DNA from: Candidatus Moraniibacteriota bacterium | Lineage (GTDB): Bacteria > Patescibacteriota > Minisyncoccia > CAIUEV01 > JAHKAQ01 | Reading direction: 5' to 3' | DNA length: 37,279 nt | Assembly: GCA_014729725.1 (NCBI GenBank) | Contig: WJJL01000017.1 | Coordinates: 1 to 37,279 of the forward strand | In this document: in pieces, positions 28,383-37,279 of the stretch | Layout of the letters: the number at the start of each line of letters is the position of its first letter | Numbering within the stretch: position 1 is the first letter of the stretch | Program-made: the position numbers and the translations under genes | Notes under the pieces: generated by a model | The model's database searches: none | Seen by the model: only the letters and a program-made list of their open reading frames with translations | Told to the model about the DNA's origin: nothing

Positions 28383-30911
28383 ATGACGGAAAGTTTTTTA
28401 ATTATAATTTTAGCGACAGTTTTTATTTTGCCGCCATTTTTGTGGTATTTTTTGTTTTTTAAGGTAAGAAAAAAAGGGCGTTTGGAAAGAGCTACCACCA
28501 TGGTGCTTCTTTCGGTTTCCCTGCCCAGAGAGGAGGATAAAGAAAACAAAGAGGAAAAAAAGGACGATAAGGAAATTGTGGCCATAACAGAGCAGCTTTT
28601 GATTGGACTTTATCGAATGAGAGATTCTTTTTTAAAAGAACTTTTTTTCGGTAAACCGCAGTTTACTTTGGAAATCGCCAATCCTTTTGACGACGATGGG
28701 ATTTATTTTTTTATCGCTTGCCCCAAACGCTTTGCCACTTCAGTGGAAAAACAGATTTACGGGTTTTTTCCCAAAGCTAATGTAATCAGAAAAAAAGGGG
28801 ACTTTAACATTTTTACGCCCAGTGGAAAATCGATGGGAACTTATATGACCTTAAGACGAAAACCTTTTCTTCCCATTAAAACCTACAAACTTTTGGAATC
28901 GGATTCACTCAACAACATTACCAACTCCCTTTCCAAGTTAAAAAAAGTGGAGGAAGGGGCTGCTATTCAGATAATTTTACAAAGCGCTTCAACCGACTGG
29001 AAAAATAAAAGCCTTTTGATTGCCAGAAGAATGAAGCAAGGGGAATCTTACAATCGGGCGAAAAGAAATACTTTTTTTAGGTTTGTTGGAGAATTTATGT
29101 CGTTGCCCATAAAAAAAGATGAAAATCAGATGGCCAACACCAATGAACCTAACATGTATGGCACGCGCCAGCAGGATTTAAGGCAGCTTACCCCGGGTGA
29201 GGAAGAGAAGTTGAAACTGATTGAAGAAAAAACTTTAAAGCCGGCTTTTGAGGTAAATATTCGGCTTTTGGCTTCATCCGATAACAAGGAGCGAGCTCAA
29301 GAGATTTTAAATCATATGGTGGGGGCTTTCAGTCAATTTGACTCGGTTGATATGAATGGATTAATTACGCGAAAACCTCTTTCCCTAAAAGATCTTATTT
29401 TTAATTTTTCTTTTCGTAATTTTTCCAAAAAATTCAAATGTCTTTTAAACAGCGAGGAGATTTCCAGTATTTTTCACTTTCCCATTTACTCCACTCAAAC
29501 TCCCAAGCTGGATATTGTTAAAGCCAAAACCGCGGCGGCTCCGGTTAATGTACCCAATGAAGGGTTGCTGCTTGGTAAAAATGTTTACAGGGGTATGGAA
29601 ACCGATATTTTTCTGGGAAGAGACGACAGAAGAAGGCATCTTTATACAATTGGACAAACCGGTACCGGAAAATCCGGATTTTTGCATGAAATGGCCAGGC
29701 AGGATATTCAAAACGGCGAAGGTGTTTGTATTATCGACCCTCATGGTGAGTTGGTGGAAGAAGTAATTGCTCAAGTTCCGCCCAACAGAATTCAGGATGT
29801 TATCTTATTTGATCCTTCTGACATTGAAAGGCCAATGGGACTAAATTTACTGGAATATGATAAGCCGGAGCAAAAAACTTTTGTGATTAATGAAATGATT
29901 AGTATTTTTGATAAACTTTACGACCTAAAACAAACCGGCGGTCCTATGTTCGAGCAATATATGCGAAATGCCATGCTTTTGGTTATGGCTCATCCCGAGT
30001 CAGGCTCCACTTTGATGGAAATTTCCAAGGTTTTGGCGGATGCTGATTTTCGAAGAATGAAACTGGATAACTGTGATAATCAGGTGGTGGTGGATTTTTG
30101 GACTAAAGAAGCGGAAAAAGCCGGAGGCGAAGCGGCGCTGGCCAATATGGTGCCTTACATTACCAGTAAGCTGACCACTTTTGTAACCAATGATATTATG
30201 CGGCCCATTATTTCTCAACAAAAATCCGCTTTTAATTTCAGAAAAGCCATGGATGAGCAGAAAATTGTTTTAGTGAATTTAAGTAAAGGTAAAATCGGGG
30301 ATATTAACGCTAATCTTTTGGGCATGGTAATTGTAGGTAAAATCTTAATGTCTTCTATGGGTAGGGTAGATATGCCGCAGGATCAGCGAAAGGATTTTTA
30401 TCTCTATATTGACGAATTTCAAAATGTAACAACCGAATCCATTGCCTCCATTTTGTCGGAAGCCAGAAAATACCGTTTGAACCTAATTATCGCTCACCAG
30501 TTTATTCAGCAGCTGGAGGAAAAAATCAGAGATGCGGTTTTTGGAAATGTAGGATCAATGGTAACTTTTAGAATCGGAGCAACAGACGCGGAATATGTTG
30601 TAAAACAATATGTTCCGGTTTTTTCGGAGAAAGATTTAATCAATGTTGACAACTTTAAAGCTTTTACCAAAGTGATGATAAGCGGCGAGGTAAGTTCGCC
30701 CTTCTCCCTAGAAACTTATCCTCCCAAACCCGGAATGTATAACCTTCAAGATCAAATCCGGGATCATTCCAGAAATACTTACGGAAGGGATAGGATGGAA
30801 ATTGAAAGAGAATTAAAAGAACGGATGGAGCTTGCGGATAAACCAAAAAAGAACCTGTTTGAAGATGATGAAGATTATGACCCTATTGATTCGGATATGC
30901 CGCCGAAGTAA
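28383..30911 (+). CDS. VirD4/TraG-like type IV secretion coupling ATPase
   Basis: This 842-residue membrane-anchored ATPase pumps DNA or protein through, or to, an envelope channel. One N-terminal membrane segment (IIILATVFILPPFLWYFLFF) is followed by a charged linker. A domain of about 350 residues of the kind often found before the motor in this group comes next. The motor has Walker A IGQTGTGKS near residues 422-430 and Walker B FYLYIDEFQNV near 672. It also has ARKYRLNLIIAHQFIQQL, a TraG/VirD4 and HerA feature. The C-terminus is acidic. Similar proteins are common in CPR genomes, where they are linked to DNA uptake or pili; that is an inference. No other T4SS gene is in the window. Confidence 0.88.
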   Translation: MTESFLIIILATVFILPPFLWYFLFFKVRKKGRLERATTMVLLSVSLPREEDKENKEEKKDDKEIVAITEQLLIGLYRMRDSFLKELFFGKPQFTLEIANPFDDDGIYFFIACPKRFATSVEKQIYGFFPKANVIRKKGDFNIFTPSGKSMGTYMTLRRKPFLPIKTYKLLESDSLNNITNSLSKLKKVEEGAAIQIILQSASTDWKNKSLLIARRMKQGESYNRAKRNTFFRFVGEFMSLPIKKDENQMANTNEPNMYGTRQQDLRQLTPGEEEKLKLIEEKTLKPAFEVNIRLLASSDNKERAQEILNHMVGAFSQFDSVDMNGLITRKPLSLKDLIFNFSFRNFSKKFKCLLNSEEISSIFHFPIYSTQTPKLDIVKAKTAAAPVNVPNEGLLLGKNVYRGMETDIFLGRDDRRRHLYTIGQTGTGKSGFLHEMARQDIQNGEGVCIIDPHGELVEEVIAQVPPNRIQDVILFDPSDIERPMGLNLLEYDKPEQKTFVINEMISIFDKLYDLKQTGGPMFEQYMRNAMLLVMAHPESGSTLMEISKVLADADFRRMKLDNCDNQVVVDFWTKEAEKAGGEAALANMVPYITSKLTTFVTNDIMRPIISQQKSAFNFRKAMDEQKIVLVNLSKGKIGDINANLLGMVIVGKILMSSMGRVDMPQDQRKDFYLYIDEFQNVTTESIASILSEARKYRLNLIIAHQFIQQLEEKIRDAVFGNVGSMVTFRIGATDAEYVVKQYVPVFSEKDLINVDNFKAFTKVMISGEVSSPFSLETYPPKPGMYNLQDQIRDHSRNTYGRDRMEIERELKERMELADKPKKNLFEDDEDYDPIDSDMPPK

Positions 30912-32111: not shown

Positions 32112-33101
32112 ATGATAAAAGAAATTAATGGTTTTGAACAAGAAATTATGAAACAAGTCAAAGAATCATTGAAATTTATTAAAGAGATAGAATATAAAGG
32201 GGAAAAAATTATTTTATACACTGACATGGATGGAACTTTCTTTGATCATTATACTTATCAGCCTACTGGTGTAGAAGAACCTGCAAAAGTGTTTGTTGAG
32301 AAAAATGGGATTTTACGACCAGTTACCAGCAAAACAGCTGCTGAAATGATAGATATTTCAGATGGATTAAAAGAAAAGAATATTTCAATAAACTCTTTTA
32401 TCATAGAAGGGGGAGCAGGTTTTTATTCAAAAAAAGACCATTATCCAGAGAATCATTTAAAAAAGATGGCTCGAGATTATGAATATTATTATGAATTTGA
32501 TCCAAATTCAGGATATGAGAAAGTTTTTTTTAGTAAAATAGGAATACATGAAATTATTAAAACCTGCTTTAAAATCGTAAAAATGGCAAAGGATAAACTC
32601 AATTTAGATTTATTTTTAATTTCTTTTGATGAATACAATTTTCAAAAACAAACTGGTCTAGATGATAATCAATTACATTTAGCTATGCAAAGAGATAGAT
32701 CAGAAGGTATTGGATTTGTTAATCCAGATGAAGCTAAACCTGAAAATATATCTGGAATTATTGAACTAGCAAAAAGTTTAAATAAAAATATTGTTGCTAA
32801 AATGGGAGGAAGATTCATTTCTGTTACAGGTGGATCTGATAAAGGTAAAGCAGTAGAATTTACAAAAAAGTGTGATGGATTTGGTTGCTTAAATTTAGGA
32901 ATAGGTGATTCAAAAAATGATGAACCTTTTTTAAGAATAGTTGATTATTCTTTTTTAGTAAAATCTGCCAATGGAGAACATAAAGATTTAGATGTTGGAG
33001 ATATTCATAAACTTCCCTTCATTGGTCCGGAATCTGTTGGATTTTTATTAAAATTATTTAATAAAAGATTTAAGGATTATTCAACCAATTTAAGCCAATA
33101 A
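32112..33101 (+). CDS. HAD-IIB sugar phosphatase, mannosyl-3-phosphoglycerate phosphatase-like
   Basis: This 329-residue phosphatase has a complete HAD active site. Motif I is LYTDMDGTFF (about residues 36-45) and motif II is PVTSKTAAEM. The motif III lysine lies in GSDKGKAVEF, and motif IV is GIGDSKNDEPFLRIVD. A C2-type cap lies between. The closing GPESVGFLL resembles the GPEGW end of mannosyl-3-phosphoglycerate phosphatase (MPGP), which removes phosphate from a glycosyl-phosphoglycerate to make a compatible solute. Its 3' end overlaps the converging GH13_18 gene by 25 bp. Both that gene and the next one relate to the same sugar chemistry. No Shine-Dalgarno site precedes the ATG, and the codon use is very AT-rich. 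Confidence 0.85.
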   Translation: MIKEINGFEQEIMKQVKESLKFIKEIEYKGEKIILYTDMDGTFFDHYTYQPTGVEEPAKVFVEKNGILRPVTSKTAAEMIDISDGLKEKNISINSFIIEGGAGFYSKKDHYPENHLKKMARDYEYYYEFDPNSGYEKVFFSKIGIHEIIKTCFKIVKMAKDKLNLDLFLISFDEYNFQKQTGLDDNQLHLAMQRDRSEGIGFVNPDEAKPENISGIIELAKSLNKNIVAKMGGRFISVTGGSDKGKAVEFTKKCDGFGCLNLGIGDSKNDEPFLRIVDYSFLVKSANGEHKDLDVGDIHKLPFIGPESVGFLLKLFNKRFKDYSTNLSQ

Positions 33102-34879
33102 ACAGTATAAGGAGTTAAATTAATTTTTACCACATCTTTATTCAATTCAAAGGTTTTTCCAGTTATAATATCAATAGCTTGATTGAAATTTTTAAAGTAG
33201 GCTTCGTATCTATAAAATTTGAATAACTGATTTTTGTTGCTTACATTAATTAATATTAATACTTTATCTTTCTGGTCTCTTGATTGTCTAAGTATTGAAA
33301 AAATTGAATTATTATTCATCAATATTATTTGCTTGCCTGAAGGATGGAAAGCTTTATATTTATTTCTTAATTTTAATAATTTTAGTAATTTCGAAAATAT
33401 TAAACTATGGACTGATTTTTTATTGTTTATAAGATCTAAGAGTTCTTCTTCTTTTAAATTTGTTCTATTAATGTCTCTATTAATCTTAGTTTTTAAGGCC
33501 TTTTTTTTATTATTTTTAGAGCCAAACAATCCATGGAAATAGATTCCGGGTACTCCTTTTAAACTAAGAGCGACAGCTCTTGAGGCAATGTATCTTTTTA
33601 TTCTTGTCGATTTTTTTTCTAAAGACTTAGAATTTAAGAAACTATACCAAGTTATATTTAACTCGTATGGAGTCTTTTTGTTATTGATACCTGTTCTATA
33701 ATTAACCAAGCCCCCTCTTTTTAAAGTAGTCTTTACTAAGTTATTGATTTCACTGCTTGTTAATATATTTTTTGCTGGTAAGACCCCTATGCCATCATGT
33801 GAATCTAAAAAGTTAAAATATGTTGTTAAATCCGAAGGTGTGTTTAAGGTTTTTGCCCAATTTGATAATTTACTGCAATTGCCAGTTAAAAAAGTATGTA
33901 ATGTTAAAGGGGGGAGTGGAAAATTATAAACCATTTGAGCTTCATCATAACCATTGCCAAAATAGGAGATATTATCAAGATGGGGGACATTGGTCTCATT
34001 GACGATCGTCACATTAGGTTTAACCATATCCAGTACGATTCTAAAAAAGCTCACGATAGCATGAGCTTCAGGTCTATGAGCACAATTTGTGCCCATTGTC
34101 TTCCATATATAAGTGGTTGCATCAAATCTCAGAAAGTCTACACTTTGTTTACAATAAAACAATAAGACTTTCATCATCTCTATCAAAACTTTAGGATTCT
34201 GATAGTTTAAATCGATTTGATCAGCACTAAAAGTAGTCCACACATATTGATCACCTTTAGTTGTTGAAAATTTAGAAAATAATTCAGAAACTCTGGGTCT
34301 TAATATTTTTGCTAAATCTGATTTTTTTAATGGATTTTTTTTAGGGTAGGCTAAAAAAAAGTTTTCAAATTTTTTATCACCATTTATAAATCCAATAAAC
34401 CATTGACTTTTACAAGAAATGTGGTTTAAAACCAAATCAAACATTAAGTTAAATTGATTTCCTATTTTAGAGATTTGATCCCAGGTTCCAATTTTTTTGT
34501 CAACTTGCTTGTAATTTATGACGGAAAATCCTCGGTCTGATGAATATGGATAAAAGGGTAATATATGGATTGTATCAAATGAGCTTTTTAAGTAATCTTT
34601 TGAGAATTTATGTAATGCTTCCAAAGGATTTTTTTTAGACTTTGATCTAATAAAATCCCCATAGGTTATTAGAATTATTGTTTTTTCTGTTAATCTGGAA
34701 TAAGAGTTATATTGTAGATTACTTTTTAAATCAATCTTGTTTTTGTTTAGATGGTTTTCAAGAATTCTATAAATTTTTTTATTCAATGTTGATAATTCCT
34801 TTCCTTTTATGTTTGGATAGATTTTTCTTATAGAAGTTCGAATTTTTTCCTTTTGAAATTTTTTGATCTTATTATCCAT
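33077..34879 (-). CDS. GH13_18 glycoside phosphorylase (sucrose / glucosylglycerate phosphorylase-like)
   Basis: This 600-residue enzyme belongs to the alpha-amylase family branch that splits or makes alpha-glucosides with phosphate. The barrel starts IILITYGD and HILPFYPYSSDRGFS, followed by FDLVLNHIS. The nucleophile aspartate is D253 in FLRFDATTYIWK, the acid/base E295 in IVNETNVP, and the third aspartate D362 in FLDSHDGIG. The GTNCAHRPEAH segment fits the subgroup with phosphorylated or glycerate acceptors better than plain sucrose phosphorylases. Length is somewhat above the usual 490-560, owing to an N-terminal helical extension of about 60 residues. It lies 18 nt after the large HAD gene and is probably cotranscribed with it. 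Confidence 0.88.
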   Translation of the reverse strand: MDNKIKKFQKEKIRTSIRKIYPNIKGKELSTLNKKIYRILENHLNKNKIDLKSNLQYNSYSRLTEKTIILITYGDFIRSKSKKNPLEALHKFSKDYLKSSFDTIHILPFYPYSSDRGFSVINYKQVDKKIGTWDQISKIGNQFNLMFDLVLNHISCKSQWFIGFINGDKKFENFFLAYPKKNPLKKSDLAKILRPRVSELFSKFSTTKGDQYVWTTFSADQIDLNYQNPKVLIEMMKVLLFYCKQSVDFLRFDATTYIWKTMGTNCAHRPEAHAIVSFFRIVLDMVKPNVTIVNETNVPHLDNISYFGNGYDEAQMVYNFPLPPLTLHTFLTGNCSKLSNWAKTLNTPSDLTTYFNFLDSHDGIGVLPAKNILTSSEINNLVKTTLKRGGLVNYRTGINNKKTPYELNITWYSFLNSKSLEKKSTRIKRYIASRAVALSLKGVPGIYFHGLFGSKNNKKKALKTKINRDINRTNLKEEELLDLINNKKSVHSLIFSKLLKLLKLRNKYKAFHPSGKQIILMNNNSIFSILRQSRDQKDKVLILINVSNKNQLFKFYRYEAYFKNFNQAIDIITGKTFELNKDVVKINLTPYTVYWLKLVE

Positions 34880-34897: not shown

Positions 34898-37279
34898 TTA
34901 TTTTTCACGGTCAGATTTTTCTATTTTTGCCAGTAATATTTTTAGGAAATTATTATTGGAATAATTTTTTACTGGTGTATGTTTTGCTAAGCTTGTTTCG
35001 TCTAATTGTGCGCTTTTTTTATTCTTAATTAAAAAACTGTGGCCTTTGCGCTCAAAAACATTTTGGTATAATCCACTATGTTTCATTGAATTGCCAACAG
35101 CTACTGCTCCCAAACGCTTTTCATCACAATTTTCAACTTTACTTATGAGTTTGAATAATATATCAACAGCTTTACTTTCATTAACCTTCAAAGTAGAGAA
35201 GTAATAGAAATCTGTTCCTTTATTAAAGTGGTATTTGTCTGAAAATCTTTCTTTTAATTTTTCCATAATTTCATCTTCATATCCACCTTCAATGATAAAG
35301 GGAGGATTAAAGTACTTCCTATTTTTAGCATTTTGAATTTTTTGAGGGCTAGTCAATTTGGGATATTGACTCAATTCTCCATCCTCCATTTCTGTTAAAA
35401 ATTTTATTCTACAATTTTGATATTTTGAATCGACTTCTTTACCTAGATTGTCAATATAAGTTTCCAAATCTTCTTTGAAATAAGTTAAATCATTTTTTTC
35501 TATTTCTGAAGCTAATTCAATAGTTACAAAATTTGGATCTGCTTGTATTTTTAAACCAGGTAGAAAGTTTTGCAAGTCTGCTACTTCTATATCAACCTCT
35601 CTTTTTTTTAAAAAGGATTTTGAAATTTTGATGGCAGCCCCATTTTCGATAATAAGAAAAGGTTGATTTTTTATATTTTTTCCATTTTCTTCAAAGAAAT
35701 TTTCTATTTCCGCATATGTTTGAGTAGTTGAAATTACTGGTATGATATTTCTATATTCTTTATTTAAAAATAGTTTACTTATTTCTCCTGAGCTATCAAG
35801 ATCAGATGGGTTCATAAAAAAGAAAGTTTTTTCTCCTTCATGAATCATAGTATTCATGCTTTCAAAGGCTTCAATAATGCCGGGATCAATTTTTTCAAAG
35901 GTTATTTCATGATATGAGGGAATAGACATTTCTCTAATTGTTAATTCCATGAAATCCCATTTGATTCCACCTTCTTCATCAGGTTGAGGGACTTTAAATT
36001 TAATAATTTCTCTACCTGTATCAGAATCTTTTTCGATCCTTATAAAATTTATTAATCTTTCGATGGATTCAACACCATAATATTCTATTAATTTTAAAGC
36101 TCTGTATTGGAATATCTCTGGAGCCATCCCTCCTTTTTCCCAAATTTTTTGGGCACTACCTGGTAAATGAGAATGAATATAGTTAAATAGATCGACCATT
36201 CCCGATTTAAATTCTCCATCCTCAGTTTTAAAGCCAAACAAATAATCTATATTTTCTTGAGTTTCGATGGTGAATCCAGAAGCTGATTTCATATATAAAA
36301 GATAATCTTCTAATGAATAGCCCTTGTTCCCTTGGAGGGGATAAGTTAAACGACCAAAGCCAAACTTTTTGTTGTCATTTTTGGCTTCTTTTTTTAATAT
36401 TTGGGTTACTCTACCGCCTTCCCCTTTATTTTCACTTGAAAAAATACTTTCTAATGCTTCTTGAATTAAAGTCGGATTTTCATGTTCAATACCATTGAGC
36501 TCTAGCAATTTTAAAAATGGATCCTTTGAGTCGGGTAATAAATGTTCAGGCATTAAATGTACAGATTTTTTTTCAAGTTCTTTTAAAATATTGAGACATT
36601 GTTCACATGTCTTAGCATTAATCACCGAAGAATCAGGGTTAGTTTGCATTGCAATGGTTTTTCTCCTTAATGAATTAACAAAATTTTCCCTAGGAATCTT
36701 TCCTGTTGAAATTGCTTTTCTCAATTCTGAAGTTGTTTTTTCTCTCATGCCCCCGGTTCTTGAGAGAGGTTTATCATGCATCTTTTTCCAAAGACTTTTG
36801 ATTTTACTTTCAAAATTTGGATAGTCATCTATTGGGTGGTTTCGTTTAAAATCATCTAATAATTTGTTTAATTCATCTTCTCCTTCGATGTTTCGCATAG
36901 CAGAAGCTGTTGTATGAAATAAATAATCGATAGGTAAATCTCCCATTATGTAATCATCGTCTGTTTCCATTACTTCTATATTTTGATAATTTTGATCTAG
37001 CAATTCTTGGAATAAGATAAACCTTTGAGTTTGGAGGTTTTGAGCTTTTGCAGATGTTCCAAATCCCATATCTGTATGAATAATTGAATCATCGATTTTA
37101 TCTCTTACGAGGTATTCACTCACATTATTAAATTTTATTTTACTCATTAGATAATCCAAATCTTCATTAATTTCTTGGGATCCTTCTTCCTTTAACATTT
37201 CTTCACATGCCGATTTTAAGGCTTCTTTAATATCCCTAAAGTTTTTTTCGTTATTTCCTGAAACTTGTGAGGATAAAAC
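34898..37279 (-). CDS. Large protein with C-terminal degenerate HAD-IIB domain, 5' end beyond the window
   Basis: The ORF track starts at an ATG at 37198, but the frame is open to the window edge (VLSSQVSGNNEKNFRDIKEALKSACEE), so the true start lies outside. The first 430 or so visible residues are helical and unrecognised. The last 320 follow the MPGP-type HAD-IIB plan. Motif I is FFMNPSDLDSSG and motif II PVISTTQTYAEI, then FLIIENGAAIKI, RKYFNPPFII and the lysine in VNESKAVDIL. Motif IV, normally GDSxND, reads AVGNSMKHSG, so both acidic magnesium ligands are lost. The domain may bind a phosphosugar without hydrolysing it. With the intact phosphatase and the GH13_18 enzyme it forms one module. 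Neighbouring HAD genes suggest duplication followed by divergence. Confidence 0.7.
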   Translation of the reverse strand, partial: VLSSQVSGNNEKNFRDIKEALKSACEEMLKEEGSQEINEDLDYLMSKIKFNNVSEYLVRDKIDDSIIHTDMGFGTSAKAQNLQTQRFILFQELLDQNYQNIEVMETDDDYIMGDLPIDYLFHTTASAMRNIEGEDELNKLLDDFKRNHPIDDYPNFESKIKSLWKKMHDKPLSRTGGMREKTTSELRKAISTGKIPRENFVNSLRRKTIAMQTNPDSSVINAKTCEQCLNILKELEKKSVHLMPEHLLPDSKDPFLKLLELNGIEHENPTLIQEALESIFSSENKGEGGRVTQILKKEAKNDNKKFGFGRLTYPLQGNKGYSLEDYLLYMKSASGFTIETQENIDYLFGFKTEDGEFKSGMVDLFNYIHSHLPGSAQKIWEKGGMAPEIFQYRALKLIEYYGVESIERLINFIRIEKDSDTGREIIKFKVPQPDEEGGIKWDFMELTIREMSIPSYHEITFEKIDPGIIEAFESMNTMIHEGEKTFFFMNPSDLDSSGEISKLFLNKEYRNIIPVISTTQTYAEIENFFEENGKNIKNQPFLIIENGAAIKISKSFLKKREVDIEVADLQNFLPGLKIQADPNFVTIELASEIEKNDLTYFKEDLETYIDNLGKEVDSKYQNCRIKFLTEMEDGELSQYPKLTSPQKIQNAKNRKYFNPPFIIEGGYEDEIMEKLKERFSDKYHFNKGTDFYYFSTLKVNESKAVDILFKLISKVENCDEKRLGAVAVGNSMKHSGLYQNVFERKGHSFLIKNKKSAQLDETSLAKHTPVKNYSNNNFLKILLAKIEKSDREK

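Follow-up and report, generated by a model that had tools for sequence, protein, structure and literature searches.

Bidomainal sucrose-phosphate synthase, as described for Synechocystis PCC 6803 and for plants, carries a fused HAD domain without catalytic residues and is accompanied by a separate, active phosphatase; it has been proposed that the dead HAD domain binds the phospho-intermediate and hands it over (PMC9971976, PMC4493782). For GpgS of M. tuberculosis, roles have been assigned to Lys114, to Val186 and Thr187, which contact the acceptor, and to Glu232 and His258, and this enzyme shares a common fold and a common active-site layout with MgS (PMC2581804). Glucosylglycerate phosphorylases are marked by a glutamate in loop A and by a T/SETN motif, whereas sucrose phosphorylases have the sequence N(L/V)D(I/L/V)YQ, and the genes of the former are reported to adjoin glycerate kinase and GpgS/GpgP genes (PMC7178133).

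The window analysed here is a stretch of 37,279 bases, which is an entire contig (C67) of a 1.14 Mb assembly (genome G000). Its fusion gene (34898-37279, minus strand, with the stop codon at 34898-34900) is an open frame of 793 codons that is open at its 5' end, and since the window spans all of the contig, the N-terminus of the protein is encoded off it. It is reasonably probable that this gene encodes a glucosyl(phospho)glycerate synthase whose phosphatase tail is dead and which would operate with a separate phosphatase and with a phosphorylase for recycling; this is the explanation that we consider the best. Complete orthologues are present in two genomes of other genera of the same family, G002 (873 residues; L006/L019) and G004 (914 residues; L007/L020), having 34% and 28% identity to the window protein, respectively. 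The alignment with these orthologues shows that the window protein lacks the first ~150-185 residues, including the first strands. When the assembly was searched for this missing part with the N-terminal region of an orthologue, no match was found with this query, whose sensitivity is unproven, there being no positive control. Scans of the genome collection and of plasmid, phage and viral sequences gave only the two orthologues, which brings the known sequences of the family to three, with the window protein truncated at its 5' end. Two weak class-wide profile matches, L011 and L012, were discarded as spurious, since they read as polynucleotide phosphorylase and RNase J; the class-wide matches L013-L018 are weak in the same way. 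The window also encodes, at 28383-30911 (plus strand), an ATPase of 842 residues matching the type IV coupling protein/HerA families (TrwB_AAD_bind, 8.7e-9), whose N-terminal region has no Pfam match.

The C-terminal HAD domain

When the entire fusion protein is compared with Pfam, NCBIfam and the PDB sequences, the HAD part alone gives matches. The last ~320 residues of the protein (residues 470-793; 34901..35872, minus strand) form a domain of the mannosyl-3-phosphoglycerate phosphatase (MPGP) type, as seen from profiles and from the predicted fold. Residues 513-737 match the MPGP profile TIGR01486 of NCBIfam (1.8e-5), the G004 orthologue matches TIGR02463 (1.1e-7), and the comparison of the fusion family with two intact MPGPs by hhalign gives an E-value of 2e-4. 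The domain-only AlphaFold2 model (pLDDT 60, pTM 0.60) has MPGP (PDB entry: 1WZC) as its best PDB match in Foldseek (E 1.6e-9), followed by YedP, with the sucrose and trehalose phosphatases lower in the ranking; this likeness is supportive, not fully independent, because the intact MPGP-type phosphatase of the window was one of the rows of the alignment. The domain has a HAD core with a C2B cap, of the MPGP subfamily. This is in agreement with the sequence-only reading, which had assigned it to HAD-IIB.

In the model, strand 1 (KTFFFM, residues 484-489) is followed by NPS (residues 490-492; 35804..35812, minus strand), which places Asn490 at the position of the nucleophile and a serine at the position of the +2 acid. 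Motif I, DxDxT with an aspartate as nucleophile, is absent here, and the orthologues have NPF (G002) and DPL (G004), so that the nucleophile position is N/N/D in the three members, the aspartate of G004 being kept without the other catalytic residues. The segment SDLDSSG, in which both aspartates of motif I had been thought to be retained, lies downstream of the motif I register, is without the motif threonine and is not conserved (NPFDFQ in G002, DPLAVG in G004), and that assignment had to be given up. The lysine of motif III is replaced by a glutamate in the window protein (E701 in VNESKAV; 35177..35179, minus strand) and in G004 (VNEKTAG). The loss of motif IV, read correctly from the sequence at the outset, extends to the orthologues: GDSxND is replaced by GNSMKHS in the window protein (residues 729-735; 35075..35095, minus strand), the counterpart of GNSMKH is ATNKQK in G004, and the motif is missing from G002, where the HAD core is truncated. 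Cap-like residues, AKNRxYxxPF, are kept in two of the three members.

Because catalytic residues are lost in all three members, it is very unlikely that any of them acts as a phosphatase through the normal HAD mechanism, and the degenerate state of both orthologues shows that the decay is not a local mutation. As judged from these alignments, the HAD tail is a non-catalytic module, and the catalytic loss is common to all known members of the family. The description of the domain as catalytically weakened is thus right as to the loss, which the orthologues share, but it understates the decay, which also includes the asparagine at the nucleophile position and the change of the motif III lysine into Glu701.

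A stand-alone MPGP-type HAD-IIB phosphatase is encoded two genes from the fusion gene (32112..33101, plus strand; TIGR01486, 9.5e-26), and all its catalytic motifs are intact (DMDGT, DKGKA and GDSKND), as had been stated before. The proposal that the HAD domain of the fusion protein is a duplicated copy of this phosphatase was dropped, at least as a recent duplication: the two HAD domains give no meaningful pairwise alignment, and a single-sequence search of G002 and G004, which is not exhaustive, gave no such phosphatase.

The N-terminal part and its glycosyltransferase motifs

The part preceding the HAD domain (residues 1-449; 35933..37279, minus strand) has no match in any of the profile libraries searched (Pfam, NCBIfam). 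Its comparison with GT81 by hhalign and by hmmsearch --max gave no significant match, and the scoring of long GT81 motif blocks, also tried before the short-motif test, was not significant; the test that was positive came after these. In this short-motif test the blocks were taken from GT81, as were the spacing limits, with one free insertion allowed. For the C-terminal motifs, none of 3000 column-shuffled family alignments reaches the observed score (z about 7), and for the set that includes the lysine and DxD motifs none of 2000 column shuffles does so, these counts being uncorrected for the fact that GT81 was picked after the motifs had been read, and GGRVT giving most of the score. The lysine, DxD, GRVT, glutamate and histidine motifs occur in the order of GpgS.

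The motifs, as aligned, are the following. AKAQNL (residues 77-82; 37034..37051, this and all following motifs on the minus strand), with the invariant Lys78, is the counterpart of GKGEAL of GpgS. DDDY (residues 107-110; 36950..36961) is an invariant DxD-type metal/nucleotide motif, and GGRVT (residues 288-292; 36404..36418), also invariant, corresponds to the motif by which GpgS binds the carboxylate of its acceptor, phosphoglycerate. YPLQG (residues 313-317; 36329..36343) is the counterpart of the PLSGE donor loop; in the fusion family PLxG is kept (ALxG in G004), and the glutamate is replaced by an asparagine or an aspartate. GFTIET (residues 335-340; 36260..36277) is the counterpart of GYGVEI, with Glu339 corresponding to Glu232 of GpgS, and in SHLP (residues 370-373; 36161..36172) His371 corresponds to the metal ligand His258. 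All three members have the same residues at the proposed catalytic positions, with an overall identity of ~30%. Blocks resembling PALNEE and STD can be placed in the G004 protein at FMIPTIGDK and RVVLSGQTVGNNE, 29 residues apart as in GT81, with low scores of their own. The G002 orthologue (L006:1147-3768, minus strand) contains AAIGYLMETSED two times, as a short internal repeat that coincides exactly with the suggested active-site motif G[YF]xxET.

The three-row model of the whole fusion protein is unusable (pLDDT 37); the order and the spacing of the motifs agree with a GT-A fold. As the full profiles fail and the confidence of this model is so low, the assignment draws on motifs, spacing and context. 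From these it follows with good probability that the N-terminal part is a GT-A transferase of the GpgS/MgS type, which is to be read as probable and not proven, because the motifs were inspected before GT81 was selected and because GGRVT contributes most of the score. On the same grounds it is kept outside GT81. The large N-terminal region, previously regarded as unrecognised, would then most probably be a transferase whose catalytic motifs are kept in all three members.

Neighbouring genes and the proposed pathway

On the strand of the fusion gene, the gene that follows downstream (33077..34879, minus strand) encodes a GH13_18 phosphorylase, its start codon being 18 bp past the stop codon of the fusion gene. 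This protein has the glucosylglycerate phosphorylase signature, with a glutamate instead of a glutamine in loop A: four proteins have PYELN, and three controls of the sucrose phosphorylase type from related genomes have YQ, within an N(L/V)DIYQ loop that the window protein lacks. The (T/S)ETN site of strand 5 is NETN in the window and G002 phosphorylases and TETN in that of G004. G002 and G004, which are the other two genomes with the fusion, have orthologues of it at 55-56% identity, and none was found in G003 and G005-G008, four order-level relatives being counted as without one; in G001 only a protein of the sucrose phosphorylase type is found, adjoining a sugar kinase.

A glycerate 2-kinase gene follows the phosphorylase gene in G004 and in G189, a more distant genome, and in G002 the phosphorylase gene adjoins a mannosylglucosylglycerate synthase gene (L027:11108-12400, minus strand; NF041101, 1.2e-65), which suggests that this relative may also produce mannosylglucosylglycerate. 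The phosphorylase of G189 (L072:7996-11218, plus strand, including the kinase gene that follows) belongs to the same clade and has AEIN in place of ETN; no fusion protein was detected in this genome, though the phosphorylase-kinase pair is present. The gene directly upstream of the fusion gene in G004 encodes a sugar nucleotidyltransferase. Downstream of the fusion gene lies a transposase-like gene (L020:4898-5719, plus strand), of the IS3 type as judged from sequence alone, which may account for the separation of the fusion gene from the phosphorylase gene. A canonical full-length GpgS gives no match in G000, G002 and G004 with a profile that finds one in a positive-control genome, and the search for a glycerate kinase in G000, the assembly of which is estimated to be 94.7% complete, gave none. 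The neighbouring genes, the phosphorylase signature and the lack of a full-length GpgS match make glucosylglycerate the likely product of the fusion enzyme.

In the preferred scheme, the N-terminal part would be a very divergent, retaining GT-A transferase that uses an NDP-glucose to glucosylate 3-phosphoglycerate (or glycerate), and the MPGP-type tail would be a former phosphatase of the same pathway that has lost its catalysis family-wide. The dead tail could have a role in structure, in docking the active phosphatase, in holding or sensing the product, or in adjusting the transferase. In the window genome, the separate HAD phosphatase (32112-33101) would strip the phosphate, generating glucosylglycerate, which the GH13_18 enzyme encoded next to the fusion gene would recycle by phosphorolysis into glucose 1-phosphate and glycerate.

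It is also possible, though rather unlikely, that the transferase takes glycerate directly, as does the mannosylglycerate synthase of Rhodothermus. No phosphatase would be needed then, and the tail would be a relic of an ancestral two-step route kept for stability. This is consistent with the similar fold and active site of MgS and GpgS described above, with the truncated HAD tail of G002 and with the failure to find an MPGP-type phosphatase in the fusion-bearing G002 and G004; however, that search used a single sequence and was not exhaustive, and an intact phosphatase of this type lies two genes away in the window genome. The further reading suggested when the sequence was first read, in which the protein as a whole senses or regulates a phosphosugar without any catalysis, is improbable: the HAD catalytic residues are indeed gone and the cap-like residues are kept in two members, but the metal, donor and acceptor motifs of the transferase are invariant in all three, which is unexpected for a dead transferase part at such low identity, and profile searches found no DNA-binding or signalling domain. 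Sensing may be a property of the tail, and the protein would mainly be an enzyme. It is very improbable that the HAD fold, which two members retain as a folded unit, now serves a new catalysis by other residues, as the surroundings of the former active site are unconserved, both around the varying nucleophile position and at motif IV. A local mutation, an assembly error or a pseudogene in one genome, as might be suspected for a gene that runs off the contig end, can practically be dismissed, given the intact 793-codon frame and the degenerate motifs in two independent genera.

Comparison with known synthases

If the synthase reading is correct, the protein fills the missing synthase slot of a glucosylglycerate pathway in Patescibacteria with small genomes, in which no such synthase is recognised by standard profiles. 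The fusion protein shares with GpgS (GT81) and MgS (GT78) the lysine, DxD, GGRVT, PLxG, G[YF]xxE and histidine motifs, which follow one another identically and, in the catalytic half, at matching distances. Unlike these enzymes, it has no full-length profile match, the glutamate of PLSGE is replaced, there are about 110 residues between RxGG and GGRVT, and the protein is much larger, with its HAD tail. The tail has the fold and the cap type of MPGP (HAD-IIB; 1WZC, 1XVI) but differs from it by the loss of motifs I, III and IV. A synthase followed by an MPGP-type phosphatase in a single chain is also the arrangement of the bifunctional mannosyl-3-phosphoglycerate synthase/phosphatase (NF011072, GT55 and HAD-IIB); in the fusion protein, unlike in that enzyme, the phosphatase half is dead. 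A GT55 identity was rejected, as profile searches with the fusion proteins gave no match to NF011072 or to Pfam PF09488.

In other Patescibacteria, four open reading frames (L032-L035, starting at 1477, 1462, 1474 and 1474, respectively, plus strand) encode a GpgS-like transferase fused to a SerB-like HAD-IB domain, the motifs of which are kept in two (DLDKT/DLDET and GDGKSD) and lost in the other two (TLDNT/TFDRT and ANSEKC/VNSPAW). As is probable for the window protein, a GpgS-type transferase is joined to a HAD phosphatase domain, whose motifs are lost in two of the four. Because these proteins, unlike the window protein, have a clear GT81 profile match and a HAD-IB tail, they represent an independent fusion and, by the sequences of the two without motifs, a separate example of a phosphatase tail that is dead.

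The closest parallel is bidomainal sucrose-phosphate synthase, which likewise combines an osmolyte glycosyltransferase with a dead HAD phosphatase-like domain and a separate phosphatase. Its transferase is of the GT-B type (GT4) and its HAD domain of the SPP type, whereas the fusion protein has GT-A, GpgS-like motifs, without any Pfam glycosyltransferase match that would indicate a GT-B (GT4) domain, and an MPGP-type HAD domain. Since both the transferase and the phosphatase families differ, the fusion has an independent origin and stands outside the sucrose-phosphate synthases. It is tentatively proposed, with less confidence than the synthase reading itself, that a new glycosyltransferase family of one Patescibacteria lineage makes glucosylglycerate under the control of a dead tail that binds the phospho-intermediate, as a third independent 'synthase plus dead phosphatase' beside those of sucrose and trehalose synthesis. 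Such a protein would provide an independent case, with an unrelated transferase fold, for the question of why a phosphatase domain without catalysis is retained in osmolyte synthases, which is open for sucrose-phosphate synthase, and a compact bacterial example in which channelling and allostery could be distinguished by simple domain deletion. By analogy, the fusion arrangement may work like that of bidomainal sucrose-phosphate synthase.
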